From Sphingomonas panacis (lineage in GTDB: Bacteria > Pseudomonadota > Alphaproteobacteria > Sphingomonadales > Sphingomonadaceae), in assembly GCF_001717955.1 (NCBI RefSeq), contig NZ_CP014168.1, forward strand, positions 1,836,001 to 1,900,000: 64,000 nt of DNA, read 5' to 3'. This document shows, one piece after another, positions 21,603 through 35,682 of this stretch (position 1 is the stretch's first letter; the number at the start of each line of letters is the position of its first letter). A program made the translations under genes and the position numbers. The notes below the pieces were generated by a model that was not told the DNA's origin, did not search any database, and worked only from the letters and a program-made list of their open reading frames with translations.

Positions 21603-22544
21603 ATGACCGAAACCGGCTCGCGGGTCGCCCTGCGCACGATTACGGAGACCGTCGGCACCGCATGGCCTGAGCATCAAGGCTTCATCGCCAAGAGCCTCGC
21701 CGGTCGCTCCGACGCGGTGCTCGACGTGTCGGAACGGCTCAGCGACGCGATCCTCAAGCTAGCGCCCGATATCGAGGGCGGCTTGCCCGCGCTCGTCGCG
21801 GATTACCGCTTCCTGTGCGAAGAGATCGTGCTCCCCGAGGAAATGCATTTCCGCCGCTATGACAGCTACCGTCTGAGCCGCTTCGAGGACGCCAACCGCG
21901 AATGCTATGCCAACGCGCCGTTCATGAACCGCTACATGAACGGGTTGCTCCTCTCCGACGTTTTATGGTCGAACCACGCGCACGCCTTCGCTTATTTCGT
22001 CGATCACTACCTGCCGCGCCTGCCCGCCGGCGGCAGGCACCTCGAGATCGGCCCCGGCCACGGCCTGTTGCTCTATTTCGCCGCCGCCTCCGGGCATTTG
22101 TCCCGAATCGCCGCATGGGACGTCAGCCCGACCAGCATCGCCAAGACCCGCCACGCGCTCGACCTGCTCGGCGTCACCGCGCCGGTCGAACTGACACTGC
22201 AGGATCTGTTCGCCGCCGCCGCGCCGGGTGAGGACGCCTTGTTCGACGGCATCGTCATGAGCGAGATTCTCGAACATCTCGAACAACCCGTCGCCGCGCT
22301 CCAGTCGGCGGCGCGCTGGCTCGCGCCCGGCGGCTTGCTGTGGATCAACGTCCCCGCCAACAGCCCGGCGCCCGACCATATCTTCCTGTTCGAAGGCCTC
22401 GACCACGCGCAGGCGATCGCGCGCGAGGCGGGGCTGGAGGTGATCGACGCGGTCGCCTTCCCGATGTCCGGCACCACGCTCGCGCGCGCGGAGAAGCACA
22501 AATTGTCGATCAGTTGCTCGGTGCTGGCGCGGCGGCCGGGCTGA
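21603..22544 (+). CDS. class I SAM-dependent methyltransferase
   Basis: 313 residues. The SAM-binding motif I is HLEIGPGHGLLLYFAA, followed by acidic motif II (IAAWDVSPTSI), DGIVMSEILEHLEQP and LAPGGLLWINVP. An N-terminal helical domain of about 150 residues precedes it. GGAG lies before the ATG at 21603. It is divergent from the MBOAT operon, and its 3' end overlaps the LysR gene tail to tail by 35 bases. Substrate unknown; a small-molecule or lipid substrate would fit the fold. Confidence 0.85.
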   Translation: MTETGSRVALRTITETVGTAWPEHQGFIAKSLAGRSDAVLDVSERLSDAILKLAPDIEGGLPALVADYRFLCEEIVLPEEMHFRRYDSYRLSRFEDANRECYANAPFMNRYMNGLLLSDVLWSNHAHAFAYFVDHYLPRLPAGGRHLEIGPGHGLLLYFAAASGHLSRIAAWDVSPTSIAKTRHALDLLGVTAPVELTLQDLFAAAAPGEDALFDGIVMSEILEHLEQPVAALQSAARWLAPGGLLWINVPANSPAPDHIFLFEGLDHAQAIAREAGLEVIDAVAFPMSGTTLARAEKHKLSISCSVLARRPG

Positions 22545-23439
22545 TCTCCTCGATCTCATCCGCCACCCGCATCTCCAGCGCGATTTCGCGGAGCGCGCGC
22601 ATCATCGCGCTGCGCTTTCGATCGCTTTGGCAGACCAGATAGCTGCGCAACCGATAAACGCGCGGGCCGGTGTCCAGCGGGCGGTATAGGATGCGCGGAT
22701 CGGGCGGGCATTCCGAGGTGAGGAAGACGCTGATGCCCAGCCCAAGCGCGATCCCCTCGCGGATCGTCTCGCGGCTTTGCAATTCGAGCGTCGCACGCGG
22801 CCGCACTTCGGCATCGCCGAGCGCGCGTTCGGTGAAGGCGCGTGTCTTCGAGGTCGGCTCGCGCAGGATCAGCGTCTCGTCGGCGAGCGCGCGGATCGGG
22901 ACGCTGGCGTGGCGTGCGAGCGGATGGTCGTGGCGCATCGCGCAGGCGAGGCGATCGGTGAACAACGGATCGTAACTGAACGCCCCTTGCGCAGGCGGGT
23001 CGCTGGCGACGGCGGCGTCGATCTCGGCGTCGTCGAGCCAGCGCATCACTTCGCGCGCGTTGCCCATGCGGATCTGGATGCCGGTATCGGGATGGCGGCG
23101 GTGGAATTGCTCGACGAGTTGCGCGGCATAGAGCGGCGAGTCCGAACCGAGCCGGAGCGCCCCGCCGGCCGGGTCGGCGGTGTCGCCGAGCAGATCGTCG
23201 ATATCCGCTGCGGTGGCGAACAATTTGCGCGTCAGCGCAAGCAGATCGCGGCCGGCGGGCGACAGGCGCAGCGGCGCCTTGCGGCTTTCGAACAACGTCA
23301 CGCCGTAGCGGCTTTCGAGCGCCTTGAGCTGCTGCGACAAGGTTGGCTGCGACACGTTGAGCCGCCGCGCCGCCCGCGACACGCCGCCTTCCACCGCGAT
23401 CGCATGGAACGCGCGCAGGTGCTGATGATTCGCTGCCAT
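22510..23439 (-). CDS. LysR-family regulator, probable activator of the phosphonate genes
   Basis: 309 residues: N-terminal helix-turn-helix (HAIAVEGGVSRAARRLNVSQPTLSQQLKALESRYG) and a periplasmic-binding-protein-like effector domain (LRLGSDSPLYAAQLVEQF... and LGLGISVFLTSE). It is divergent from the FAD oxidase-phnX-transporter operon, the usual layout for a LysR activator and its target. LysR regulators commonly sit beside 2-aminoethylphosphonate degradation genes, so its ligand may be this phosphonate or phosphonoacetaldehyde. The intergenic space has two palindromes that may be its binding sites. Confidence 0.88.
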   Translation of the reverse strand: MAANHQHLRAFHAIAVEGGVSRAARRLNVSQPTLSQQLKALESRYGVTLFESRKAPLRLSPAGRDLLALTRKLFATAADIDDLLGDTADPAGGALRLGSDSPLYAAQLVEQFHRRHPDTGIQIRMGNAREVMRWLDDAEIDAAVASDPPAQGAFSYDPLFTDRLACAMRHDHPLARHASVPIRALADETLILREPTSKTRAFTERALGDAEVRPRATLELQSRETIREGIALGLGISVFLTSECPPDPRILYRPLDTGPRVYRLRSYLVCQSDRKRSAMMRALREIALEMRVADEIEEISPAAAPAPSN

Positions 23440-23450
23440 CGGGACTTCCG

Positions 23451-23512
23451 TCTACCGTAGAGTGGTGACGGTTGCGTGACGATCTCGCGCGATGTCGATA
23501 GGTTTCACCTAT
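23451..23512. promoter_or_regulatory. two palindromes, likely LysR regulator sites
   Basis: TCTACCGTAGA (23451-23461, perfect) and ATAGGTTTCACCTAT (23498-23512, perfect with a 3-base centre) lie between the LysR gene and the FAD oxidase gene. The second has the T-N11-A form of LysR boxes. Confidence 0.5.
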
Positions 23513-23592
23513 ATGCCGCATTCAAGCAAACGCTTGGCACGGGCGGGGCTTTCCGCGCGAGGGCGATCCCCTGTTTGCGCAGGGAGCGGATC

Positions 23593-24732
23593 GTGGCGGA
23601 AGACCAGTATGACATTGCCATCGTCGGCGCCGGCATTGTCGGGCTGGCGCATGCGCTCGCCGCCGCGCGCGCGGGCCTGCGGGCCGTTGTGATCGATCGC
23701 GACGCGCAGGTGAACGGCGCGTCGATCCGCAATTTCGGTTTCGTCACCGTTACCGGGCAGGAAAATGGCGCGCCGTGGCGTCGCGCGCGCCGCTCGCGCG
23801 ATGTGTGGGCTGAGGTCGCGCCACAGGCGGGCATCCCCATCGAGCACACCGGCCTCGCCATGGTCGCGCAGCGGCGCGAGGCGCTGGCGGTGCTCGAAGC
23901 CTTCATGGCGACCGACATGGCCGAAGGCTGCGAGTTGCTGGAAGGCGCTGCCGCGCGCGCGCGACTTGGCGAAGTCCGCCCGCGCGATCTGGCCGGCGCC
24001 TTGTTCAGCGGTATCGATCTGCGCGTCGAATCGCGCACCGCCATTCCCAGACTGGCCGCCTGGCTGACCGAGTGCCACAATGTCACGTTCCGGCGCGGCG
24101 TCGCGGTCAACGCGGTCGAATCCGCGCGGGTGACGACCAGCGCCGGCAGCATCGCCGCCGGCACGATCATCGTCTGCCCCGGCGACGATCTCGCCACCCT
24201 GTTCCCCGATGCGCTGGCGCGCGCCGGCGTCACGCGCTGCAAGCTCCAGATGCTGCGGCTCGCCGATCCCGGCTTCCGTCTCCCCTCGGCGGTGATGTCC
24301 GATCTGGGGCTGGTGCGCTATCGCGGCTATGCGGCGCTGCCTGCCGCTGCCGCGCTCTCCGCGCGGCTCGAGGCCGAGCAGGGCGATCACCTCGCCAACG
24401 GCGTCCATCTCATTGTCGCGCAGAACGCCGACGGCAGCTTGATCGTCGGCGACAGCCACCATTATGCCGCCACCCCGGACCCGTTCGGTTCGAGCGAGGT
24501 CGACGCGCTTATCCTCGACGAATTCGCCGCCGTGTTCGGGCTCGTGCCCCCGGTGCTCGAACGCTGGACCGGCACTTATGCGTCCGCATCGGGGCACAGC
24601 CTCGTCGAAACGCCGATGGACGGCGTGCGGCTCGTCGTCGTCACCAGCGGCACCGGCGCCTCGACCGCCTTCGCGCTCGCCGAGGAGGTGATCGGCGGCA
24701 TCATCAACATCCAACTGGGAGCTTCCGTATGA
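23593..24732 (+). CDS. FAD-dependent amine oxidase of phosphonate operons (TIGR03364-like)
   Basis: 379 residues. The N terminus (YDIAIVGAGIVGLAHALAAARAG...VIDRD) is the FAD/Rossmann site of the DAO/glycine-oxidase family. GASIRNFGFVTVTGQ, near the flavin, and GDSHHYAATPDPFGSSEVD towards the C terminus match the TIGR03364 group found next to phnX. Relatives oxidise 2-aminoethylphosphonate or N-methyl forms to phosphonoacetaldehyde, the substrate of the next enzyme. No PhnW transaminase is present, so this enzyme probably replaces it. The start is GTG at 23593 with AGGGAG upstream; the frame also stays open upstream to 23476. Confidence 0.85.
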   Translation: MAEDQYDIAIVGAGIVGLAHALAAARAGLRAVVIDRDAQVNGASIRNFGFVTVTGQENGAPWRRARRSRDVWAEVAPQAGIPIEHTGLAMVAQRREALAVLEAFMATDMAEGCELLEGAAARARLGEVRPRDLAGALFSGIDLRVESRTAIPRLAAWLTECHNVTFRRGVAVNAVESARVTTSAGSIAAGTIIVCPGDDLATLFPDALARAGVTRCKLQMLRLADPGFRLPSAVMSDLGLVRYRGYAALPAAAALSARLEAEQGDHLANGVHLIVAQNADGSLIVGDSHHYAATPDPFGSSEVDALILDEFAAVFGLVPPVLERWTGTYASASGHSLVETPMDGVRLVVVTSGTGASTAFALAEEVIGGIINIQLGASV

Positions 24733-25538
24733 GCCTCGCGATCAAGGCCGTGATTTTCGACTGGGCCGGCACGATGATCGATTTCGGCTCGCGCGCCCCC
24801 GTCATCGCGCTGCTACGGCTGTTCGAGGATGCGGGCGTGCCGATCACCGAGGCGGATGCACGCGCCGACATGGGCCGCGCCAAGCGCGACCACATCCGCG
24901 CGATCCTCGCGGCGCCGCATATCGCGGCGGGCTGGCAGGCGGTGTACGATGCGCCACCCGGCGAGGAGGACGTGTCGCGATTGCACGATGCGGTCGAGCC
25001 GATCATGCGTGCCGCCGCCGCCGATTGTGCGCTGCTCGTCCCCGGGGCTGCGGAGATCGCGGCGCGGCTGCGCGACGCGGGCGTGCGGATCGGCTCCTGC
25101 ACCGGCTACACCCGTGCGATGATGGCCGACATCCTGCCGCGCGCCGCCGAACAGGGCTATGCGCCCGAGGTCGTGGTCTGTTCGGGCGAGACGGCGGAAG
25201 GGCGGCCATCGCCGCTGATGGCGTGGAAAATCCTGGTCGAGCTCGGCGTCTGGCCGTCGTCGGCGTGCGTGAAAGTGGACGATGCCTGCGTCGGCATCCG
25301 CGAGGGGCAAGAAGCGGGGATGTGGACGGTCGGGTTGGCCGCATCCGGCAACGGCGTCGGGCTGGATGCCGCCGATCTGGCCGCGCTCCCGGCCGATGCG
25401 CGCGCACGCCGCATCGCCGACGCGGCGGAAGCGCTCTACGAGGCGGGAGCCGACTACGTCGTCGACAGCGTCGCCGATGTGTGGCCGGTGCTCGACGCAA
25501 TCTCGATCCGCATCGCAGCCGGCGAAAAGCCGGCATGA
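24729..25538 (+). CDS. phnX: phosphonoacetaldehyde hydrolase
   Basis: 269 residues of the HAD superfamily. The nucleophile motif FDWAGT (Asp11), the Schiff-base Lys in MGRAKRDH (Lys52), SCTGYTRAMM and VKVDDACVGIREGQEAGMWTVGL follow the PhnX pattern. It breaks phosphonoacetaldehyde into acetaldehyde and phosphate. Start and stop overlap both neighbours by ATGA, so FAD oxidase, PhnX and transporter are one translational unit. Confidence 0.95.
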   Translation: MSLAIKAVIFDWAGTMIDFGSRAPVIALLRLFEDAGVPITEADARADMGRAKRDHIRAILAAPHIAAGWQAVYDAPPGEEDVSRLHDAVEPIMRAAAADCALLVPGAAEIAARLRDAGVRIGSCTGYTRAMMADILPRAAEQGYAPEVVVCSGETAEGRPSPLMAWKILVELGVWPSSACVKVDDACVGIREGQEAGMWTVGLAASGNGVGLDAADLAALPADARARRIADAAEALYEAGADYVVDSVADVWPVLDAISIRIAAGEKPA

Positions 25539-26839
25539 GCGCTCACGACAGCGCGGTGACGCGCTGGCTGCGCACCGCGCCGCCGGTCTTGTTCGCCCTG
25601 TACGGCGGACTCGCCGGCTTCGGCGCCTATTCGGCGATGTACGCGTTCCGCAAACCCTTCACCGCCGCGAGCTATGAGCATATCGCGAACTGGCCGTTCG
25701 CGATCGATTTCAAGGTCGCGCTCGTCATCGCACAGGTGGCGGGCTACGCGCTCTCCAAGGTGATCGGCATCAAGATCGTCTCGGAAATGCCGCCCGCGCG
25801 CCGCGCCGTCGGCATTCTCACGCTGATCGGCGTGGCGGAACTCGCGCTGGTCGGCTTTGCGACGCTGCCGGCGGTGGTCGGCATCGCGGCCTTGTTCCTC
25901 AACGGGCTGATGCTCGGGATGATCTGGGGGCTGGTGTTCGGCTTCCTCGAAGGACGGCGGCTATCCGAAGTGCTCGGCGCGATGCTGTGCGCGAGCTTCA
26001 TCCTGTCCTCCGGGCTGGTCAAATCGGCGGGTGAGGCGCTGATCCTGTCGGGCTGGGCGAGCGAGCGCTGGATGCCCGCCGCGACGGGCCTCGCCTTCAC
26101 GCCGCTCCTGCTGCTCGCGGTGTGGGCGCTCGCGCAACTGCCACCGCCCGATGCGCGCGACGAGGCCGAGCGCGCCCCGCGCGTGCCGATGGGCCGCGAC
26201 CAACGCGCACGGCTGTTCGCCACCTATGCGCCGTCGCTGATCGCGCTGATCGGCGTCTATGTCATGCTCACCGCACTTCGCGATTTCCGCGACAATTTCG
26301 CCGCCGAGATCTGGCGGGAACTGGGCTTCGCCGGCGAGGCCGGGATCTTCACCGTATCCGAACTGCCCGTCGCGGTGGTGGTGCTGGTGTCGATGGGGAT
26401 GCTGATCCGCGTGCGCGACAATCGCGCGGCGGTGTTCTGGAACCTTGCGCTGATCGCACTGGGTTTCGCGCTGCTCGGCCTCGCGACCGCCGCGTTCCAG
26501 TTCGGCCTGATCGGCCCGGTCGCGTGGATGATCGTGATCGGCGCCGGGCTGTATTTCGCGTACACCCCGTTCAACGCTTTGCTGTTTGACCGGCTGATGG
26601 CGACCGCGTCGGTGGCGGGCAATGCCGGTTTTCTGATCTACGTCGCCGATGCCTGCGGCTATGTCGGCAGCGTCGCGTTGCTGCTGTTCCGCAGCTTCGC
26701 GCACGTCTCGCTCGACTGGAGCAACTTCCTGTGTGCGGTGTGCTACGGCGCGTGCGGGCTGGGGCTGGCCGGCACCGCGTTCGGCGCGCTCGCCTTCCGT
26801 CACACGGTGGATGCGCAGGAACGTGCGCTGGAGCCGTAA
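25535..26839 (+). CDS. MFS-like transporter, DUF5690 family
   Basis: 434 residues with about twelve helices. LYGGLAGFGAYSAMYAFRKP in helix 1 and the loop ending LVFGFLEGRRLSEVLGAMLC are characteristic; I assign DUF5690 with moderate certainty. It is the third gene of the phnX operon and so a good candidate to import the phosphonate or a related amine across the inner membrane. No ABC-type phosphonate importer (phnCDE) is visible. It ends two bases from the convergent GntR gene. Confidence 0.8.
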   Translation: MSAHDSAVTRWLRTAPPVLFALYGGLAGFGAYSAMYAFRKPFTAASYEHIANWPFAIDFKVALVIAQVAGYALSKVIGIKIVSEMPPARRAVGILTLIGVAELALVGFATLPAVVGIAALFLNGLMLGMIWGLVFGFLEGRRLSEVLGAMLCASFILSSGLVKSAGEALILSGWASERWMPAATGLAFTPLLLLAVWALAQLPPPDARDEAERAPRVPMGRDQRARLFATYAPSLIALIGVYVMLTALRDFRDNFAAEIWRELGFAGEAGIFTVSELPVAVVVLVSMGMLIRVRDNRAAVFWNLALIALGFALLGLATAAFQFGLIGPVAWMIVIGAGLYFAYTPFNALLFDRLMATASVAGNAGFLIYVADACGYVGSVALLLFRSFAHVSLDWSNFLCAVCYGACGLGLAGTAFGALAFRHTVDAQERALEP

Positions 26840-26840
26840 A

Positions 26841-27596
26841 TTACCCCCGCACACTCAAATCGACATGCACGCGGATCGCGTCATGGCGCCAATATTCCTG
26901 ATCGTATTCGACCACGCGCCCGCCCGCATCGAAGCTGGTGCGCACCACCAGCAGCCCCGGCGTGCCCGATTTGACGCCGAGTTCGTCCGCCACCGTCTTG
27001 ATGAGCGCGCACGGCCGCATATCGACCCGGTTTCGGATTACCGTCGCGCCATATTCGCGGGTGAGCACCTGAGTCAGCGAACCGTCGAGCGAATGGTCGA
27101 GCAGCCCGGGCGCCAGCGCCGGGTCGACCGTGATTTTCTCGACGAGCACCGGCCGCCCGTCGATCGAGCGCAGCCGCCCGATCACATAGAGCAGCGTCCC
27201 CGGCGCAACGCGGAAGATGTCGGAGACGGCGGCGGTGGCGGGGGCGCTCTCCTTGCTCACCGTGCGAGTCGCGGGGCGGCGACCCTGTTCGGCGACATAG
27301 GTCATGAACCCGCTCCACCGTGTCGGATCATAAGTGACGGCGGGCGGAGACACGTACCAGCCGCTGCGCTCGCGCCGGTAGATCAGCCCCTCGGCCTCCA
27401 GCTGGAACAGCGCCTCGCGGACCGTGCCGCGCGCAGTGCCCGCGCCAGTCTGTAGCTGGCGTTCGGAAGGGAGCTTCGCCCCGGCGGCGAGTTGCCCCGC
27501 CTCGATGCTGGTCGCGATCTGGTCGCGCAACGCGATATAATGCGGGCCGCCGCCCTCAGGCGGGGCGAGCGGGATCATGCTGTCGGGGCGCGCCAT
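26841..27596 (-). CDS. GntR-family (HutC/UTRA) regulator
   Basis: About 251 residues. The winged helix (YIALRDQIATSIEAGQLAAGAKLPSERQLQ...GTVREALFQLEAEGLI) is followed by a UTRA ligand domain (LLYVIGRLRSIDGRPVLVEKITVD ... DELGVKSGTPGLLVVRTSFDAGGRVVEYDQEYWRHDAIRV). HutC-subfamily members recognise GT-N-TA-N-AC; matching palindromes lie before the TonB receptor gene and between the HD and phospholipase genes. The start at 27596 is preferred because the first codons of a longer frame (27632) lie inside a hairpin. PhnF-like function is inference. Confidence 0.88.
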   Translation of the reverse strand: MARPDSMIPLAPPEGGGPHYIALRDQIATSIEAGQLAAGAKLPSERQLQTGAGTARGTVREALFQLEAEGLIYRRERSGWYVSPPAVTYDPTRWSGFMTYVAEQGRRPATRTVSKESAPATAAVSDIFRVAPGTLLYVIGRLRSIDGRPVLVEKITVDPALAPGLLDHSLDGSLTQVLTREYGATVIRNRVDMRPCALIKTVADELGVKSGTPGLLVVRTSFDAGGRVVEYDQEYWRHDAIRVHVDLSVRG

Positions 27597-27658: not shown

Positions 27659-30508
27659 TCAGAACCGCGCGCTCGCGCGGACGATCACGTTGCGGCCCGG
27701 CTCCATATAGTCCTTGAGGTAGCTCGGGTTGTCGCCCTTGGTCGTCCAATATTTCCAGTCGTCGAGCAGATTGCTGACATCCACGTCGATCGCGAAACGG
27801 TCATTGATGTTGTAGCGCGTGTGCAGATCGACGCTGCGGTTGTGCTGCACCCATTTGTCGACGGCATTGTCGCGCAGGCTCTCGATATACTTGCCGCGAT
27901 AATTGTACGACAGCTTCGCCTCGAACCCGTATTTCTGGTAGGTGAGCGAAGCGTTGTAGAGCACCCCCGGCGTGTTGATGAGCGGGATCTTCCTGCCCAT
28001 CCGGTAGGCCTGGCCGGTGTCGCCCTCGCTATGCTGGATCGTCACATTGCCCTCGAAGCCGAACCCGTCGAACGGCGCCGGCAGCCCCTGGAACTGCTTC
28101 ACGATCGCTGCTTCGAACCCATAGACGATCGCGTCCTTGCCGTTCTGCGGCTGGCTGATCTCGACCGTGCCGACCGAGGTATCGGCGTTGACCTGGCTAC
28201 CGTTGGTGAAGATGAAATTGCTGATCGATTTGTAATAGCCTGCGATGCTGACGATGCTGGTGCGATCGGGATAATATTCCGCCGAAACATCGAGGTTGAC
28301 CGCGCGCGCCGCCTTCAGATTGGGGTTGCCCCGGCTGATCGCGGTGATCTCGTTCTGCGCGTTGCGCGCGACGCTCTGCCCGCCCGAGAGATAGCCATAT
28401 TCGGGCGGCGAATAGCCGGTCCACAGCGCGAGGTGATAGACCTGCTTGTCGGTGGGCCGCCAGATCAGGTTCGCGCTCGGCAACACCACCGTATAGCTGT
28501 TGGTGGTGCTGTCGAAGCCGCTGTTGTCTCCATCGTCGGACCAGAATATGTTCTTGGTCTCGCGGTGTTCGGCGCGCACGCCGATCGTCGCCTGAACCGC
28601 GCCCTGCTTCAAATGCGCGAGCAGATAGCCAGCGGTGACCTTTTCGGTGTTCCTGTTGTCGTTCGACAGCAGATCGGTCGCCGAGGGCAGGCCGTTGTTG
28701 CCGAGCGCTTGCGCCGCGTTGATCGCCGCCCGCACCTTGGCCGGATCGAAGATCGCGCCGTAATAATATTCGCCGTGCAGGATGTCGGGCACGTCGCGCT
28801 GGATCAGCCCCGACGCGGCGAGGCTCTTGCCGTCGAGCGCGGTGCCGGTGAAATCGCCGCTCCACAACGGCGTATAGTTATAGACGCGGCGCGAGCGGTT
28901 GAACTGCGCGCCCGCTTTCAGATACTCCAGCCACCCATCGAAATCATAGCGCACGTCGAGCTTGGCGTTGATCCGGTTGTCAGTCTGCTTGTCGCGGCTG
29001 TGGCTGGCGCCGTCGAACGGCAGCAGCGTCGGGTCGTACTGGACGTTGGCGGCGGCGCCGGTCGGGCTGGCCTGCGGAAAGCGCGGATCGGCCGAGACCC
29101 AGTCGAGCCCCTGCGACAGCAATGCCGGCGCGCATTTGTCGCAATTGTATGCGATCGAATAATTGTCCGGGTTCTCGCGCACGCCGTAGCTGTAGCTGCC
29201 CTGGTAGTCGACATGCAGCCTGTCGAAATCGCTGTGCCCGCCACCGCTCACCGTCGCGAGCGTCTGGTTCGAATTGATCGTGCCGAAGTTGCGCGCGAAC
29301 TGAAACGCCTTGGGGTCCCACACGCCCGAACGGCCGTTGAGCGACCAATATTGGCTCGAGTTGGCATCGTGCCCGGTGATGATTCCGTCGCCATCGGCAT
29401 CGACGATCTGTGACGTGGAATAGCCATAGCGGCTATAGGTGACGCCGCCGATGGTGGTCGTGCCGATGACGCTGTTCTCGGGCTGAGCGAGGCCGGTGTC
29501 GTTCTGGTTAACCTGGGTCAGCCGTGCGGTCTTGCGGCTGCGGTAATCGGTTACGTCATTGCTGCCGCGCTGTTCCTGCCGCGAGACCTGACCGCGCAGA
29601 TACAGCTGCGTGGTGTCGCCACGCCAGTCGAGCGAGAGGTTGCCGCCATAGCGCGTGTTCTTGACGCGGCGGAAATCGAGATCGATCCCGGGCAAGTGCA
29701 TGTTACGCTGGTCGATCACCTCAGTCGAATTGGCGCGCCACTGGTTCGGTTCCCACTCGCCGTCATTCTCGGTCTCCTGCCCGTCGCCGTGGGTCACGCC
29801 GTAATTGGCCGAGGCGAATACCCCGAAGCGATCATCGGCGAAGCGGTGCGCGAAATCGCCCTGGACGGTGTAATTCTCCGCCGGCAGCTTCGCGGATTTG
29901 GCGCGATCGTTGAACCCGCCGCTACCGTAGAGGCGGAACGTCGTCGGGTTCTTGAAATCGAACGCGCTCGGCGTGCGGAAATCGATCGTCCCGCCGATCG
30001 CGTCGCCGTCCTGATCGGGCGTCAGCGTCTTGGTGACGGTGACCGAGGCGAGGCCATAAGGCGGCAGTACGGTGAGCGACACGTCACGCGTGCTCGGGTC
30101 GGTGTTGGCGACGCGCACGCCGTTGATCATCACCGCATTGTACGTGCCCGACAGGCCGCGCACGGTGACATATTCGCCCTCGCCGGTATCCTGATTGACG
30201 ATCGTCGAGACGCCGGGGATTCGCGCGAGCGAATCCGCCACGGTGGCGTCCGGGAGCTTGCCGAGATCGTCGGCGGAGATCACGTCGATCACCCGGTCGG
30301 ACGCGCGCTTGTCTTCCAGCGCGCGCGCGGTGCTAAGCCGCTGACCGCTGACGACGACATCGTTCGCCGTGTCGGCATCGGCGGCGGGTGGAGCGGCGGC
30401 GTCGGCGCGCGCGACCGCCGGTGTGAACAGCGCGGCTGCCAGCGCGGGCAAAGCGGCGGATCGGAGCGCGCGCGCCCGGCGCGCGCTGTGGAACGGCATC
30501 GTCATCAT
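27659..30508 (-). CDS. TonB-dependent outer membrane receptor (TIGR01782 type)
   Basis: 949 residues. Signal peptide (RSAALPALAAALFTPAVARA), TonB box region (ANDVVVSGQRLS), plug with LGKLPDATVADSLARIPGVS, GEYVTVRGLSGTYNAVMING and DQDGDAIGGTIDFRTPSAFDF, then a 22-strand barrel ending in Phe (VRASARF). This is the TonB-Xanth-Caul class used for carbohydrates and other large substrates. AAGGGGGG precedes the ATG at 30508. It shares a strand with the GntR gene, lies beside the phosphonate operon and has a HutC-type operator upstream, so it may import the phosphonate compound. Substrate not proven. Confidence 0.93.
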   Translation of the reverse strand: MMTMPFHSARRARALRSAALPALAAALFTPAVARADAAAPPAADADTANDVVVSGQRLSTARALEDKRASDRVIDVISADDLGKLPDATVADSLARIPGVSTIVNQDTGEGEYVTVRGLSGTYNAVMINGVRVANTDPSTRDVSLTVLPPYGLASVTVTKTLTPDQDGDAIGGTIDFRTPSAFDFKNPTTFRLYGSGGFNDRAKSAKLPAENYTVQGDFAHRFADDRFGVFASANYGVTHGDGQETENDGEWEPNQWRANSTEVIDQRNMHLPGIDLDFRRVKNTRYGGNLSLDWRGDTTQLYLRGQVSRQEQRGSNDVTDYRSRKTARLTQVNQNDTGLAQPENSVIGTTTIGGVTYSRYGYSTSQIVDADGDGIITGHDANSSQYWSLNGRSGVWDPKAFQFARNFGTINSNQTLATVSGGGHSDFDRLHVDYQGSYSYGVRENPDNYSIAYNCDKCAPALLSQGLDWVSADPRFPQASPTGAAANVQYDPTLLPFDGASHSRDKQTDNRINAKLDVRYDFDGWLEYLKAGAQFNRSRRVYNYTPLWSGDFTGTALDGKSLAASGLIQRDVPDILHGEYYYGAIFDPAKVRAAINAAQALGNNGLPSATDLLSNDNRNTEKVTAGYLLAHLKQGAVQATIGVRAEHRETKNIFWSDDGDNSGFDSTTNSYTVVLPSANLIWRPTDKQVYHLALWTGYSPPEYGYLSGGQSVARNAQNEITAISRGNPNLKAARAVNLDVSAEYYPDRTSIVSIAGYYKSISNFIFTNGSQVNADTSVGTVEISQPQNGKDAIVYGFEAAIVKQFQGLPAPFDGFGFEGNVTIQHSEGDTGQAYRMGRKIPLINTPGVLYNASLTYQKYGFEAKLSYNYRGKYIESLRDNAVDKWVQHNRSVDLHTRYNINDRFAIDVDVSNLLDDWKYWTTKGDNPSYLKDYMEPGRNVIVRASARF

Positions 30509-30669
30509 GTCCCCCCTTCGGGATGTGAGAATATCAAGCTCGAGCCGGACACCGACCGGGCACAGACACACCGCTCTCGTCGCCGGCGCGGGTGCGCCTG
30601 CGGGTCGGGAGCGTCGCAGTCTGATCCCTTTCCCCGGTGGGGCCGGGCGAGTCGGTTTTTCCGGCTAAA

Positions 30670-30685
30670 ACTGGTCTAAACCAGA
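30670..30685. promoter_or_regulatory. HutC/GntR-type operator before the TonB receptor gene
   Basis: ACTGGTCTAAACCAGA holds perfect arms CTGGT/ACCAG around CTAA and fits the HutC-subfamily pattern GT-N-TA-N-AC. It is 160 bases upstream of the receptor start. Ten of its twelve core bases match the site at 31999. Confidence 0.65.
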
Positions 30686-30794
30686 TGTGATGACGGCATG
30701 GTTACAAGCGCGGTGCCGGATGGAAATAATTTGATACGGCCGCGATCGCCGAACCCCTCGACCGTAGTGTCGGCACGGTCCTAAAGGCGGTGGC

Positions 30795-31337
30795 ATGGCG
30801 CGCGTGATTCTGTTCAACAAACCCTATGGCATGCTGAGCCAGTTCACCGATCGCGGAACGGCGGATGCGCGCGCGACTCTCTCGGACTTCATCGATCTGC
30901 CCGGCGTCTACCCGGCGGGGCGGCTGGATCGCGACAGCGAGGGGCTGCTTGTGCTGACCGACGACGGCCGCCTCCAGGCCCGGATCGCCGATCCCAAGTT
31001 CAAGTTGCCCAAGACCTATCTCGTCCACGTCGAAGGGGAGGTCGATGCCGGTGCGCTCGATCGGCTGAGAGCCGGCGTCGTGCTCAAGGATGGGGTGACC
31101 CGGCCCGCTGAAGCCGAGCGAATCGAGGCTCCGGCACTCTGGCCGCGGGATCCGCCGATCCGCGTCCGCGCGAACATCCCCGATTGCTGGCTGAGGTTGA
31201 CGATCCGCGAAGGCCGCAACCGGCAGGTCCGGCGCATGACGGCGGCGGTCGGCTACCCGACGCTCCGGCTGATCCGCTGGAGCATCGGCGACTGGACCGC
31301 CGCCGGCCTCGCGCCCGGCGAATGGCGCGAGGCGTAA
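30795..31337 (+). CDS. rluE: 23S rRNA pseudouridine synthase, RluE-like
   Basis: 180 residues. [11 protein letters not shown], the catalytic Asp motif [17 protein letters not shown] and [23 protein letters not shown] are the RsuA/RluE signatures. The protein lacks the N-terminal S4 domain, as RluE does. It converts a uridine in domain V of 23S rRNA to pseudouridine. It sits between the receptor and the HD gene but is a housekeeping gene with no link to them. AAGGCGG precedes the ATG. Confidence 0.92.
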
Positions 31338-31356
31338 CGGCCCCGCGCGCGCCCGA

Positions 31357-31929
31357 TCAACGCGCCGCGCGCGTGTCGTAACCCGAACCGACCAGTCGCT
31401 CGAGCAGCGGCCGGTACGAATCCAGCGTCGGCACCACCCAATCCTTGCGCTTGCCGCCATCGTCGCAGCGGCGCAGCAGAACCGCCTCGGCGAAATACGG
31501 CTCCGCCTCGAACGTCGCACGCTCCTTCGCCGTCATCGCGCCGCCCTGCAATGTCAGGCTGAGCCACGAGGCCGCGCTGAGCGAGGTCTGATAGCCAGGC
31601 TCGATCGCGCACAGATAGCGTTTGGCGTCGACGTGAAGCCGCACCGGCTCGGTCACGGCGGGCGGGAAGTGCGCCTTGAGCAACGTGTTGCCGAGCATTT
31701 CGTGGCGCATGTCGATGCCGTGGCGCTCGGCGGCATGGCCCGCGTCGCCGATCAACTGGCCCACGTCGTGGAGCAACCCCGCGGCAATCAGCGGCGAGTC
31801 GCCACCAGCCTGCCGCACCAGTTCGGCGACCTGGAGTGCGTGCTGTATCTGGGTGGCGTTCTCGCCATAATGTTCGTCGCCCGCCGCCGCGAACAGCGCG
31901 TAAATCTCGTCGATCACCTGTGTCGTCAT
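31357..31929 (-). CDS. PhnZ-like HD-domain protein (phosphonate-associated, TIGR03276 type)
   Basis: 190 residues. The sequence YGENATQIQH, LLHDVG, RHEMLG, LHVDAKRYL and RRCDDGGK gives His30, His54, Asp55, His76, His99 and Asp156. Their spacing follows the diiron ligands of PhnZ as I recall them (34, 58, 59, 80, 104, 161). PhnZ-type enzymes cleave hydroxylated phosphonates oxidatively; TIGR03276 members occur in phosphonate operons. No PhnY hydroxylase gene is near. GAGGACG precedes the ATG at 31929. It is divergent from the phospholipase gene, with a HutC-type operator between them. A longer upstream frame overlaps the phospholipase gene and is not used. Confidence 0.85.
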   Translation of the reverse strand: MTTQVIDEIYALFAAAGDEHYGENATQIQHALQVAELVRQAGGDSPLIAAGLLHDVGQLIGDAGHAAERHGIDMRHEMLGNTLLKAHFPPAVTEPVRLHVDAKRYLCAIEPGYQTSLSAASWLSLTLQGGAMTAKERATFEAEPYFAEAVLLRRCDDGGKRKDWVVPTLDSYRPLLERLVGSGYDTRAAR

Positions 31930-31998
31930 CAGCGTCCTCGATTGGCCGGATAGGCTGGGGCGCGTCGAGCCGCCCCGATGTCGTGGTTTTGTCACTTT

Positions 31999-32010
31999 TG
32001 GACTATACCA
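31999..32010. promoter_or_regulatory. second HutC/GntR-type operator, HD protein/phospholipase intergenic region
   Basis: TGGACTATACCA, nearly palindromic, shares 10 of 12 bases with the core TGGTCTAAACCA at 30672. It sits in the 129-base gap between the divergent HD and phospholipase genes and could control both. Confidence 0.55.
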
Positions 32011-32058
32011 GTGGCCAGCGCCGATAGCGGCAAAGATCGAGGCTGAAAAGGCAAAAGC

Positions 32059-34164
32059 ATGGACCGGTCGAAACGGGATTTTCTGCGCATGGCGGGGGCG
32101 GGGGCAGCGGCGGCATCGCTTCCGGGGTTGATCGGCCGCGCGCTCGCGGTTCCGGCCAATCGCCGCACGCGCTCGATCATGGATGTCGAGCATATCGTCG
32201 TGTTCATGCAGGAGAATCGCGCGTTCGATCAGTATTTCGGCATGCTGAGCGGCGTGCGCGGCTTCGGCGATCCGCGTCCGCTCCGGCTGAAAGGCGGCGC
32301 GAGCGTTTGGCGCCAGCCCTCGCGCGAGCACCCCGACGGCTATGTCATGCCGTATCACGGTGATTCGAAGGTCAGCCGCGCGTTCCTCGTCGACGGCGCC
32401 GATCAGTCGCACCAGGGCAACATGACGATCTTCAATCAGGGCCGCTATGATCGCTGGGGCGCGAGCGGCGAACTCCACAACCGCATGCTGCATTACACGG
32501 CGGGCGATCTGCCCTTCTATTACGCGCTCGCCGACGCCTTCACCGTCTGCGACGCCTATCACTGCTCGACGATGACTCAGACCTATCCCAACCGGCTGCA
32601 CCTCTTCACCGGCTGCAACGGCGGCGGCACGGTCGGCGGTGATCCGCAGATGCACAATTACGGCGAGGACGAAACGCCGAGCGCCGACATGCGCGAGGAC
32701 AAGCCGCTCCGCCCCGACGCCTACCGCTGGACGACCTATGCCGAGCGACTGGAGAAAGCCGGGGTAAGCTGGAAGGTCTATCAGGAATACGACAATTTCG
32801 GCGACAACCTGCTTTCCGTGTTCCCCGCCTTCCGCCCGTGCGCGCCCGAGTCGCCGCTATACCGGCGCGGCCGGTCATGGGTAAGCGAGCACAAGGCTGG
32901 CGCGGACCGCACCCGCTCCGACGGCGAGCAGCTCGTCGCCGCGTTCCGTGACGATCTCGCGAACGGTACGCTGCCGCAGGTCTCGTGGATCGTCACCGCC
33001 GCCGCTCTGTCCGAACATCCGAACGCGGAGCCGTCGCGCGGCGAGCATGTCGCGGCCGAGCTGATCGCGGCGCTGGTCGATCACCCGGAGATGTTCGCCA
33101 AGACCGCGTTCATCATCAACTACGACGAAGCCGGCGGCTTCTACGATCACATGGCGCCGCCGGTACCCCCGGTCGCGGGCTATCGCGGCCATTCGACCGT
33201 GCCGATTGACGGTGAGACCAAGGATTGGGGGCAGGGCGCGGTCGCCAACACAGGCACGCATCCGATCGGCCTCGGCATCCGTGTGCCCGCGATCATCGTC
33301 TCGCCGTGGACGCGCGGCGGCTATGTCTGCTCGGAGCTGTTCGATCATACCTCCGTGCTCCGGTTCATGGAAAAGCGCTTCGGGGTCGCCGAACCCAATA
33401 TCAGCGCATGGCGTCGCGCGGTCTGTGGCGATCTCACCTCCGCGTTCGATTTCGCCGGAGCCGATGTCGCCGCGCCCGATCTCCCGCAAACGCGCGATTT
33501 CCTCGATCGCATAGCGCGCTCCAAGGCCGGCACCGCGCTCACCATCCCGGGCGTGCAAACCCCGCCCCGGCAAATGCCCGGCCAGCGGCCCGCGCGCCCG
33601 CTCGCTTACGCGCTCGACATCAACGCCGCGTTGTCGAACGGCCGCTTGAGAATCGACATGGCCAACACGGGCCGCACCGGCGCGGTGTTTTCGGTTCACG
33701 ACAATCATGACAGGCAAGCGCCGTGGCACTTTACCATCGGCGCAGGCGCACGCCATGCCGCCGACGACTGGCACCGCGTCGGCGACACCGCCTATGACCT
33801 GACGGTGCATGGCCCCGACGGCTTCTACCGCCGCTTCGCCGGAACGCTCGACGCCACGACCGAAGCGACGCTCCGGCGACACGCGGACGCCGTCGATCTG
33901 ACGCTCGCCAACCACGGCAGCGAAGCGTGCGTGTTCGTGATCGCTCTCGATCCCGCCTATTCCGGCGTCGACCGTTCCCGCCGTATCACCGTCGCACCCG
34001 GCAAGCGCGCTACCGACCGCTGGTCTTTGGCGGCGAGCGACGGCTGGTACGATCTCAGCGTGGGCCGCGAGGGCGATGCCGCCTTCCTGCGCCGCTTCGC
34101 GGGGCGCCTCGCGGGCGGTCGCAAGACCGATCCCGGAATCGGCGCGATGCGGCTCGACGCGTGA
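32059..34164 (+). CDS. phosphocholine-specific phospholipase C (PlcN/PlcH-like)
   Basis: 701 residues. N-terminal twin-arginine-like signal (RSKRDFLRMAGAGAAAASLPG) with Lys-Arg instead of Arg-Arg. The phosphoesterase domain has VEHIVVFMQENRAFDQYFG (metal-site Glu-Asn), THPIGLGIRVPAIIVSPWTRGG and FDHTSVLRFMEKRF. Two C-terminal DUF756 repeats (about 515-600 and 610-690) complete the Pseudomonas-type architecture. It hydrolyses phosphatidylcholine or related lipids to diacylglycerol and phosphorylated head group, outside the cytoplasm. It neighbours the HD oxygenase and dipeptidase genes. Confidence 0.92.
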   Translation: MDRSKRDFLRMAGAGAAAASLPGLIGRALAVPANRRTRSIMDVEHIVVFMQENRAFDQYFGMLSGVRGFGDPRPLRLKGGASVWRQPSREHPDGYVMPYHGDSKVSRAFLVDGADQSHQGNMTIFNQGRYDRWGASGELHNRMLHYTAGDLPFYYALADAFTVCDAYHCSTMTQTYPNRLHLFTGCNGGGTVGGDPQMHNYGEDETPSADMREDKPLRPDAYRWTTYAERLEKAGVSWKVYQEYDNFGDNLLSVFPAFRPCAPESPLYRRGRSWVSEHKAGADRTRSDGEQLVAAFRDDLANGTLPQVSWIVTAAALSEHPNAEPSRGEHVAAELIAALVDHPEMFAKTAFIINYDEAGGFYDHMAPPVPPVAGYRGHSTVPIDGETKDWGQGAVANTGTHPIGLGIRVPAIIVSPWTRGGYVCSELFDHTSVLRFMEKRFGVAEPNISAWRRAVCGDLTSAFDFAGADVAAPDLPQTRDFLDRIARSKAGTALTIPGVQTPPRQMPGQRPARPLAYALDINAALSNGRLRIDMANTGRTGAVFSVHDNHDRQAPWHFTIGAGARHAADDWHRVGDTAYDLTVHGPDGFYRRFAGTLDATTEATLRRHADAVDLTLANHGSEACVFVIALDPAYSGVDRSRRITVAPGKRATDRWSLAASDGWYDLSVGREGDAAFLRRFAGRLAGGRKTDPGIGAMRLDA

Positions 34165-34241: not shown

Positions 34242-35510
34242 GTGGTCAACGGACGAAATCGACACATTACGGCGCTGCTGGCGAGCGCGGCCTTGCTGAT
34301 CGGCGGCGCAGGGTATGCGGCGAGCCGGAAAGCGCCCGCCGATCCGGCGCGCGCAATCCATGAGACGCTGATCGTGCTCGACACGCATTTCGACACCCCC
34401 GCCAATCTCGGCCGCCCCGGCTGGAGCATCATGGACCGCCATGCGACCGTGACCGACGGCGATCAGGTCGATTATCCGCGCATGGTGCAAGGCGGCGTCG
34501 ATGGCGGCTTCTTCGCGATCTACACGCCCTCCGGCCCGCGCACGCCGGTCGGCGATCGTGCCGCGCGCGATTTCGGCATCCAGCGCGCGGTGCAGATTCG
34601 CGAGATGGCGGCGAAGCACAGCGACGTGTTCGCACTCGCGCTCACCGCCGACGATGCCGCGAAAGCCGTGGCGGCGCACAAGCGTTTCGTGTTCCTGAGC
34701 ATGGAGAACGGCTATCCGTTCGAAGGCGACCTGACGCTGATGCGGACCTTCCGTGGTCTCGGCGTGACGATGATGGGCCTGGTCCACTTCAAGAACAACG
34801 ATCTCGCCGACAGCGCGACCGATACGCCCGAATGGCACGGTCTTTCGCCCAAGGGGAAGGAAGCCGTCGCCGAGGCCAACAAGCTCGGCGTCGTGATCGA
34901 CGTCAGCCACGCGTCGGACGATGTGCTACGCCAGACCGTGATGCTGTCGAGCGCGCCGATCATCCTGTCGCATTCGGGCATGCGCGCGATCCACAATCAC
35001 CCGCGCAACGTGTCGGACGAAGACGCGAAGCTGGTCGCGGCCAAGGGCGGCGTCATCCAGATCAACGCGTATAGCGGCTATATGGTCGATCCCCCCGCCG
35101 CCAGTGCCGCCCGCGACGCGGCGATGAAGGAGTTGATGGCGAGCTACGAAAAAGCCGATACGATGACCGTCGCCGAACGCCGCGCGCTGATCGCCCGGCG
35201 CAAGGCAATCGAGACGCAATTCCCCGCGCCGCGCGCGAATTTCGATATGTTCATGCAGCATTTGCTTCACGCCATCAAAGTCGTCGGGATCGACCATGTC
35301 GGCATCAGCGGCGATTTCGACGGCGGCGGCGGCCTCGACGGTCTGGAGGATATCACCGCCTATCCCAAGGTGACGGCGGCGTTGCTCAAGGCAGGTTATA
35401 GCCCGGCCGACATCGGCAAGATCTGGGGCGGCAACGCGCTGCGCGTCCTGCGCGCCGCACAGTCGCTGGCCGATCCGGCGGTACTGCCCAAGGTGCCGGT
35501 GACGAACTGA
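34242..35510 (+). CDS. membrane dipeptidase (peptidase M19), exported
   Basis: 422 residues, GTG start at 34242 with AGGGG upstream. The signal peptide is HITALLASAALLIGGAGYAA. The zinc residues of M19 appear in order: LDTHFDTP (H-x-D), FLSMENGYPF (bridging Glu), VIDVSHASDDV and ILSHSGMRAIHNHPRN (His pair), and GIDHVGISGDFDGGGGL (Asp). It cleaves dipeptides, including those with D-residues, in the periplasm. It follows the phospholipase gene by 77 bases and may be cotranscribed. Confidence 0.93.
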   Translation: MVNGRNRHITALLASAALLIGGAGYAASRKAPADPARAIHETLIVLDTHFDTPANLGRPGWSIMDRHATVTDGDQVDYPRMVQGGVDGGFFAIYTPSGPRTPVGDRAARDFGIQRAVQIREMAAKHSDVFALALTADDAAKAVAAHKRFVFLSMENGYPFEGDLTLMRTFRGLGVTMMGLVHFKNNDLADSATDTPEWHGLSPKGKEAVAEANKLGVVIDVSHASDDVLRQTVMLSSAPIILSHSGMRAIHNHPRNVSDEDAKLVAAKGGVIQINAYSGYMVDPPAASAARDAAMKELMASYEKADTMTVAERRALIARRKAIETQFPAPRANFDMFMQHLLHAIKVVGIDHVGISGDFDGGGGLDGLEDITAYPKVTAALLKAGYSPADIGKIWGGNALRVLRAAQSLADPAVLPKVPVTN

Positions 35511-35531
35511 GGTAGCCGCACCCACCTCCAA

Positions 35532-35664
35532 CCCGTTCGTGTCGAGCCCTTCGGCTGGCTGGCAAGCCAGCCGCTCAGGATAAACTTCGGCCCAAAGGGC
35601 CGAAGTCGAGACACATGCCACAGCGTTCGAGGCACGTCCCTCGACTTCGCTCGGGACGAACGGG
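35532..35664. repeat. dispersed hairpin repeat, family A copy 2 (long form)
   Basis: Ends cccgttcgtgtcgagc and cttcgctcgggacgaacggg as in the other copies. Inside are two further stem-loops (ggctggcaagccagcc and cttcggcccaaagggccgaag). It lies between the dipeptidase gene and the convergent hybrid kinase gene. Confidence 0.8.
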
Positions 35665-35682
35665 GGTGGGGGCGTTCTCGCC

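Follow-up and report, generated by a model that had tools for sequence, protein, structure and literature searches.

A conserved PhnR-type palindrome upstream of TonB receptor, PhnZ-like oxygenase and phospholipase C genes: evidence for a predicted aminophosphonate regulon in Sphingomonas panacis and its relatives

Background

The use of 2-aminoethylphosphonate (AEP) in Salmonella is reportedly governed by phnRSTUVWX, the regulon of PhnR (TIGR03337). AEP occurs in the sphingophosphonolipids of marine gastropods, and the PC-PLC family of phospholipases C (TIGR03396) is of the PlcH/PlcN type. The gastropod sphingophosphonolipids also contain N-methyl-AEP, and the study that reports this describes PbfD oxidases that convert N-methyl-AEP and, for some of these enzymes, AEP to phosphonoacetaldehyde, thereby replacing an absent PhnW (PMC10590968). 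A second enzyme, PhnZ, is described in another report as converting (R)-1-hydroxy-AEP to glycine and phosphate, the 1-hydroxy compound being known from a polysaccharide of Acanthamoeba and from phospholipids of Bdellovibrio stolpii (PMC8154272). As for uptake, AepP is characterized as a GlpT-like 2AEP permease of the MFS type (PMC8316502). Part of the phosphonate in nature is tied up in lipids and glycans, and the catabolic clusters described in the parts of these sources used here start from the free compound. A regulon in which phospholipases and TonB receptors share an operator with the genes of C-P bond cleavage would provide the first step that is lacking, and would moreover suggest a transporter family (DUF5690) and a source, open to testing, from which PhnZ could obtain its 1-hydroxy substrate.

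Here we analyse a locus of Sphingomonas panacis that lies within a stretch of 64,000 nucleotides (the window). An original prediction, made from the letters of this stretch, had proposed that two similar palindromes join a TonB receptor, a PhnZ-like enzyme and a phospholipase C (PLC) in one regulon. Co-regulation of the TonB receptor and the PhnZ-like / PLC pair is strongly supported by conserved sites, and we consider it fairly probable, on the same comparative grounds, that the genes form a PhnR regulon by which aminophosphonates bound to lipids or glycans are taken up and mineralised. Our search of the open-access literature found no paper on a PhnR regulon joining these genes.

Results and Discussion

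The locus and its proteins

The following features of the window enter the argument:

22510 to 23439, minus strand: LysR regulator of the aminoethylphosphonate type (TIGR03339, 250 bits, under the cut-off of 341)
23593 to 24732, plus strand: PbfD-type FAD oxidoreductase (TIGR03364, 419 bits, cut-off 285)
24729 to 25538, plus strand: PhnX, phosphonoacetaldehyde hydrolase (TIGR01422, 329.8 bits, cut-off 220)
25535 to 26839, plus strand: DUF5690 protein, a predicted MFS transporter (PF18943, 486 bits)
26841 to 27596, minus strand: PhnR-like GntR/UTRA regulator (PF00392 and PF07702 both exceed their cut-offs; translated here from 27596, with a longer reading frame from 27632)
27659 to 30508, minus strand: TonB-dependent receptor (TIGR01782, 588 bits, cut-off 310; plug and barrel domains)
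30670 to 30685, without strand: candidate PhnR-type operator 1, ACTGGTCTAAACCAGA, with its core at 30672 to 30683
31357 to 31929, minus strand: PhnZ-like HD-domain oxygenase (TIGR03276, 203.5 bits, below the cut-off of 214.6)
31999 to 32010, without strand: candidate PhnR-type operator 2, TGGACTATACCA, in the divergent PhnZ / PLC intergenic region
32059 to 34164, plus strand: phospholipase C of the PC-PLC family (PF04185 and PF05506; TIGR03396, 731 bits, cut-off 580)

The regulator had been described as HutC-type and as the only one of its kind in view. It is the sole UTRA protein of the window (the genome has four), and the class assignment stands; the narrower name PhnR-like fits it better, since the PhnR model TIGR03337 is its best family by 162 bits, with 250.1 bits against 88 for the HutC model. 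By its sequence it is thus a PhnR-like protein of HutC/UTRA type within the PhnR clade, its score lying under the curated cut-off of 296.75 bits that formal TIGR03337 membership takes. Its gene is linked in the locus to the aminoethylphosphonate genes encoding PhnX, PbfD and the PhnZ-like protein, and it directly follows the TonB receptor gene in the same orientation; given the shared strand and the gap of about 60 bp, the two probably form one transcription unit. Orthologs (E-value at most 1e-40, calculated per genome) are present in 9 of 298 sampled genomes of the family, its own included, and the other eight are 70–77% identical to it.

The PhnZ-like protein has TmpB (6npa, 1.4e-33) as its nearest solved structure, followed by PhnZ. 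Its H, HD, H, H and D residues, which we take to be the metal site, and a Tyr-Gly-Glu motif, presumably the substrate motif, are invariant in nine sequences including that of the window, and we assume for it the diiron chemistry of its family. The Tyr-Glu spacing of Y-G-E is one residue shorter than in the Y-x-G-E of PhnZ and TmpB. The PLC matches positions 2–681 of the 688 in the TIGR03396 profile, and 9gy2 and 9gye are solved relatives. It is probably exported, its signal peptide being only weakly Tat-like (20.4 bits, under the cut-off of 22.7), and it could be specific for phosphocholine head groups, the TIGR03396 score fitting phosphatidylcholine or sphingomyelin as substrate.

On the other side of the regulator, the LysR gene is divergent from an operon of FAD oxidase, PhnX and DUF5690. 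PhnW has no match over cut-off in this genome (75 bits versus 400.8), so the FAD (PbfD) route is needed. The structure model of DUF5690 (mean pLDDT 79) has the MFS fold. Human G6PT1/SLC37A4, which transports organophosphates, accounts for each of its first ten Foldseek matches; GlpT stands at rank 22, and other MFS proteins tie with G6PT1 by Z-score. At the sequence level, the DUF5690 profile gave no match to solved chains at E-values up to 10, and the open-access literature yielded nothing on the family. Since AepP is a GlpT-related AEP permease, a transporter reading is plausible, and on the modelled fold we regard DUF5690 as a candidate new family of phosphonate transporters. In genomes without PhnR we found it in four loci, two of them beside PbfD and PhnX and two not.

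The candidate operators and the question of chance

Both palindromes are present at 30670–30685 and 31999–32010, as had been claimed. Their cores, TGGTCTAAACCA and TGGACTATACCA, agree at 10 of 12 positions; the pattern GT-N-TA-N-AC, a rule taken over from the original prediction, is matched in full by the first and with one change by the second. Operator 1 precedes the likely start of the TonB receptor by about 164 bp, and operator 2 is 48 bp before the PLC start. The only sigma-70-like match in a promoter scan of 30300–32200 is on the plus strand at 30701–30730, immediately behind site 1; site 2 has none.

Chance resemblance has in its favour that the pattern was picked post hoc and that 12-mers of this kind arise by chance. 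The combined pattern TGGWCTAWACCA matches the 5.32-Mb genome exactly at these two sites only, the pattern itself being derived from them. With up to two mismatches, the window holds 8 matches (7 places, one on both strands) versus 1.95 expected; with one mismatch, the genome holds 20, versus 25 for a reversed-pattern control. The 3-kb pieces around 18 inexact genome matches contain no site of at least 15 bits on the matrix described below (best 10.0). Because they are post hoc, such counts were set aside, and, TGGWCTAWACCA being derived from the sites themselves, evidence independent of them was sought. Separately, TGGTCTATGCCA has six copies in the genome, of which five occur in nearly the same context (L013, L014, L015, L022 and L023, near 1460–1560); these five similar places look like one multi-copy repeated coding element.

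We therefore built a symmetric weight matrix from 22 sites of the eight relatives with an orthologous regulator, excluding the window. Members of the same gene set occur in all eight of their loci. A palindrome differing from TGGTCTAGACCA at no more than two positions precedes the TonB receptor in six of the seven loci that have a receptor there (the seventh, in L040, has a site of 21.4 bits by the matrix), PLC and/or PhnZ in all eight, and DUF5690 in seven of eight. The resulting matrix is palindromic, in agreement with a palindromic site of the GT-N-TA-N-AC type. On the 64-kb window it places operator 1 first (23.65 bits) and operator 2 second (20.01 bits), with 10.74 bits at rank 3, and 30 first-order Markov sequences of the same length reach 14.37 bits at best. 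With this independent matrix, a position conserved in tens of loci and the negative controls given below, the chance reading is refuted by the orthologous regions, and we give it next to no probability.

Controls lacking the regulator, and the identity of the binding protein

Four PLC homologs of 46–47% identity and four PhnZ homologs of 47–57% identity, from genomes in which the regulator has no ortholog, have no site of at least 15 bits in their loci, the best score, 14.2 bits, lying inside a PLC gene. Two DUF5690-PbfD-PhnX loci likewise without the ortholog (L165 and L166) have no site of even 13 bits. Altogether, 12 PLC, PhnZ or DUF5690 loci from 12 ortholog-free genomes, three of which still give regulator matches of 29–31% identity, contain no site of at least 15 bits (best 14.2). 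Conversely, PLC orthologs of at least 67% identity were found in 8 of 296 genomes searched, all among the nine with the regulator. In one relative (G288), PhnZ and a different TonB receptor are on a contig other than that of the regulator and have sites of 27.7 and 23.7 bits; the regulator lies 120 kb inside its own 374-kb contig, counted from the closer end. The site therefore follows the genes and not only the neighbourhood.

These data also bear on which protein would bind. The genome encodes four UTRA proteins and related regulators can share palindromes of such form, so that a HutC/UTRA regulator other than the neighbouring PhnR-like protein might be thought of. Against this, the 3.4-kb pieces around the other three UTRA regulators contain no site of at least 15 bits (best 12.5), the 12 ortholog-free loci have none either, and loci gathered through the PhnR-like protein itself (L079–L135, below) carry sites in 54 of 57 cases. 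We hold another regulator to be very improbable, and read the palindromes as putative operators of the PhnR-like protein.

A wider survey of regulator-linked loci

When named genomes were searched with an alignment of the regulator, 231 relatives were found, of which the best 80 loci were kept and divided into two groups by record title. The first group (57 loci, L079–L135) comes from Sphingomonadales, Caulobacterales, Gluconacetobacter and Niveispirillum, with metagenome-assembled genomes of other alphaproteobacterial names and one locus named only 'uncultured bacterium'. The second (23 loci, L136–L158) is mostly gammaproteobacterial, with regulators of 41–44% identity, and includes L154 from Pseudochelatococcus. 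Upstream sites were counted in 50 loci, namely the 57 less six contigs identical to training loci and less L079, with one threshold and one distance throughout (at least 15 bits within 450 bp upstream). Genes missing more than 40 N-terminal residues (130 for TonB receptors in this count), or starting less than 300 bp from the end of a locus, were dropped.

The original prediction had asked for the motif to recur beside these genes in related genomes and named its absence from the orthologous intergenic regions as the outcome that would speak against it. The scan gave the opposite of absence. A site is kept upstream of nearly every ortholog: 33 of 34 PLC genes, 38 of 39 PhnZ genes, and 13 of 13 orthologous TonB receptors (at least 50% identity), in which it lies 70–215 bp upstream. 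The single PLC/PhnZ exception, L109, has a core TGGTATAGACCA at 14.6 bits. Sites precede 12 of the 22 less related TonB receptors and 2 of the 11 PLC paralogs below 50% identity. DUF5690 has one in 17 of 33 cases, PbfD in 1 of 30 and PhnX in 0 of 29, low values being expected for the last two where these genes follow another in an operon; the figures for the regulator genes are 14 of 49 and for LysR 0 of 3. Together with the site-free control loci, this conservation supports the proposal of one regulon containing the TonB receptor, the PhnZ-like enzyme and the PLC.

With training contigs and L079 still included, at least one site is present in 54 of the 57 loci (none in three), a match to PhnZ, PhnX or PbfD in 49, a PLC together with a C-P enzyme (any of these three) in 38 of 40 PLC loci, and TGGACTATACCA, the commonest core at PLC promoters, in 28 of 42 site-gene pairs; on the same basis, there are 126 sites in 1.05 Mb, against 2.35 on average and 24 at most with 40 column-permuted matrices. 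The remaining 8 of the 57 loci have no C-P gene within the fetched flanks, and two of these (L120 and L130) have a PLC. When PhnZ / PLC spacers are anchored on their best matrix match, a procedure that favours the site columns, conservation is 98% in the 12 columns of the site and 51% in the flanks (35 spacers with enough flank, out of 38 that include the window, L079 and training contigs). Loci combining the site with cluster genes are found in Sphingomonadales, Caulobacterales and Gluconacetobacter; Niveispirillum has it together with PLC and TonB receptor. The second group has a site in 20 of 23 loci, and before PhnW in all 12 loci with that gene.

The catabolic operon departs from this pattern in the window. 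Relatives often have a third site before DUF5690-PbfD-PhnX, whereas a matrix scan of 23000–24000 found no operator before the FAD oxidase operon of the window (best -1.3 bits). In both the window and L079, PbfD, PhnX and DUF5690 follow one another in this order, with an AEP-type LysR gene divergent from them; LysR matches lie beside these genes in L079 and L099. It seems from this arrangement that the uptake half stays under the PhnR-like protein and that the catabolic operon has moved to another regulator.

Two neighbours were considered as conserved members and rejected: the RluE-like pseudouridine synthase (30795–31337) and the M19 peptidase (34242–35510) each have a match only in L079 among the best 80 of 231 loci and in none of the eight ortholog loci. 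A site lies 111 bp upstream of RluE in both the window and L079, and the intergenic sequence after the M19 gene (35520–35670) appears by eye inverted and repeat-like.

Partners of PhnZ and of the phospholipase

A PhyH-type partner (PhnY*) was found in two gammaproteobacterial loci only; searching the alphaproteobacterial loci with one gammaproteobacterial homolog as probe, which divergent forms may escape, revealed no PhnY*-like gene beside PhnZ, and the one PhyH match in this genome (43.5 bits) is far from the window. In the alphaproteobacterial loci the PhnZ substrate would therefore be ready-made or come from an unseen enzyme. In Neptunomonas (L146, 11995–13447) a site of this type precedes a PhnZ-like gene and, behind it, a gene for a PhyH-type dioxygenase, an arrangement consistent with a PhnY*-PhnZ pair under predicted PhnR control; this PhnZ-like protein, too, is under the TIGR03276 cut-off (204.2 bits).

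Further hydrolases are found close to sites of this kind in some relatives. In seven relatives' loci, a PI-PLC/PAP2 protein has a 12-bp TGG-N6-CCA core near its start, which reaches 15 bits in three of the seven; Ca-dependent PI-PLC and PAP2 domains were scanned in two of these proteins, and L094 matched only in part. PI-PLC-C1 plus PAP2 proteins lie near PhnR-type palindromes at L088 (2941–4890) and L130 (10680–12629), both domain-scanned, and at L108 (18019–19965), assigned by similarity. In 12 non-identical loci, a gene for a PAP2 protein alone directly follows the PLC gene in the same orientation. Upstream of a laminin-G metallophosphoesterase in L039 there is a 29-bit site, itself a training site; the homologs of this enzyme in L034 and L041 have no site of their own.

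Such partners fit a broad attack on phospholipids, and the PLC passes a phosphocholine-specific model. True PhnR operators might accordingly control a regulon for free aminophosphonates, to which a general phospholipase was added in order to exploit ordinary phosphate esters whenever phosphonate indicates that organic phosphorus or eukaryotic debris is at hand; the gammaproteobacterial PhnW-PhnX loci, which have no PLC match in the fetched flanks, agree with this. What weighs against it is that PLC and a C-P enzyme share 38 of 40 PLC loci, that PLC homologs of 46–47% identity from four genomes without a PhnR ortholog are site-free, and that none of ten annotated neighbouring proteins is a phosphate-regulon or choline gene. 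We judge this explanation rather unlikely, and favour a regulon directed at bound aminophosphonates.

A proposed phosphonolipid regulon

From site conservation, gene linkage and protein families, which are read directly from the sequences, we infer the following course of events for the favoured regulon. 1) The two palindromes would be operators bound by the PhnR-like repressor encoded at 26841–27596, and would co-regulate the TonB receptor, with phnR probably in the same unit, and the divergent PhnZ-like / PLC pair. 2) A phosphonate ligand would induce the system by releasing PhnR repression. 3) The PLC would hydrolyse a phosphonolipid (ceramide aminoethylphosphonate, for example) at its alcohol-phosphonate ester and yield head groups of the aminoethylphosphonate type; as a matter of chemistry, a PLC acting on a phosphonolipid would release exactly the substrates of PbfD and PhnZ. 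4) The TonB receptor would import a large ligand or fragments. Free AEP should pass porins, and the presence of a TonB receptor therefore points to a larger ligand. 5) DUF5690 would move the head group across the inner membrane. 6) PbfD oxidase and PhnX would convert (N-methyl-)aminoethylphosphonate to acetaldehyde and phosphate, and PhnZ the 1-hydroxy form to glycine and phosphate.

A more specific version is offered tentatively, as somewhat less likely than not. It envisages a dedicated regulon for feeding on phosphonolipid or lipophosphonoglycan, from outer membrane to cytoplasm, in which PhnR would sense an aminophosphonate, PLCs would unload the membranes of protists, invertebrates or bacteria, TonB receptors would take a large ligand, DUF5690 would be a new transporter family, and PhnZ would work without PhnY* on natural 1-hydroxy-aminoethylphosphonate. 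Bacteria with these sites may thus feed on the unusual phosphonate lipids of other organisms.

Comparison with known systems

The PhnR regulons of the Oceanospirillum/Marinobacterium loci are among the closest known systems: they share the regulator clade and the TGG-N6-CCA palindrome before phosphonate genes, and PhnX is common to both. In contrast to them, the window locus has no PhnW and no ABC transporter was seen in it; it adds a TonB receptor, a PLC, a PhnZ-like oxygenase, a PbfD oxidase and DUF5690. With the PbfD-PhnX oxidative-hydrolytic AEP route, as set out in the sections drawn on here, it shares a TIGR03364 oxidase beside PhnX without PhnW, whereas a word search of the main text of that paper gives no 'tonb', 'phospholipase' or 'regulator' (PMC10590968). 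The comparison with the PhnY*-PhnZ / TmpA-TmpB route is similarly mixed: the PhnZ-like enzyme of the window has the same H, HD, H, H and D residues, but the alphaproteobacterial loci lack a PhnY*-like neighbour detectable with one gammaproteobacterial probe, and the Y-G-E of the window is one residue shorter. AepP (PMC8316502) resembles DUF5690, as predicted here, in being an MFS transporter tied to AEP genes, and the DUF5690 model, closest to G6PT1/SLC37A4, also matches GlpT; DUF5690 is nonetheless a different Pfam family. Finally, the PLC of the window matches the PC-PLC family (TIGR03396) over cut-off at nearly its whole length, and differs in sharing predicted operators with genes for C-P bond cleavage.
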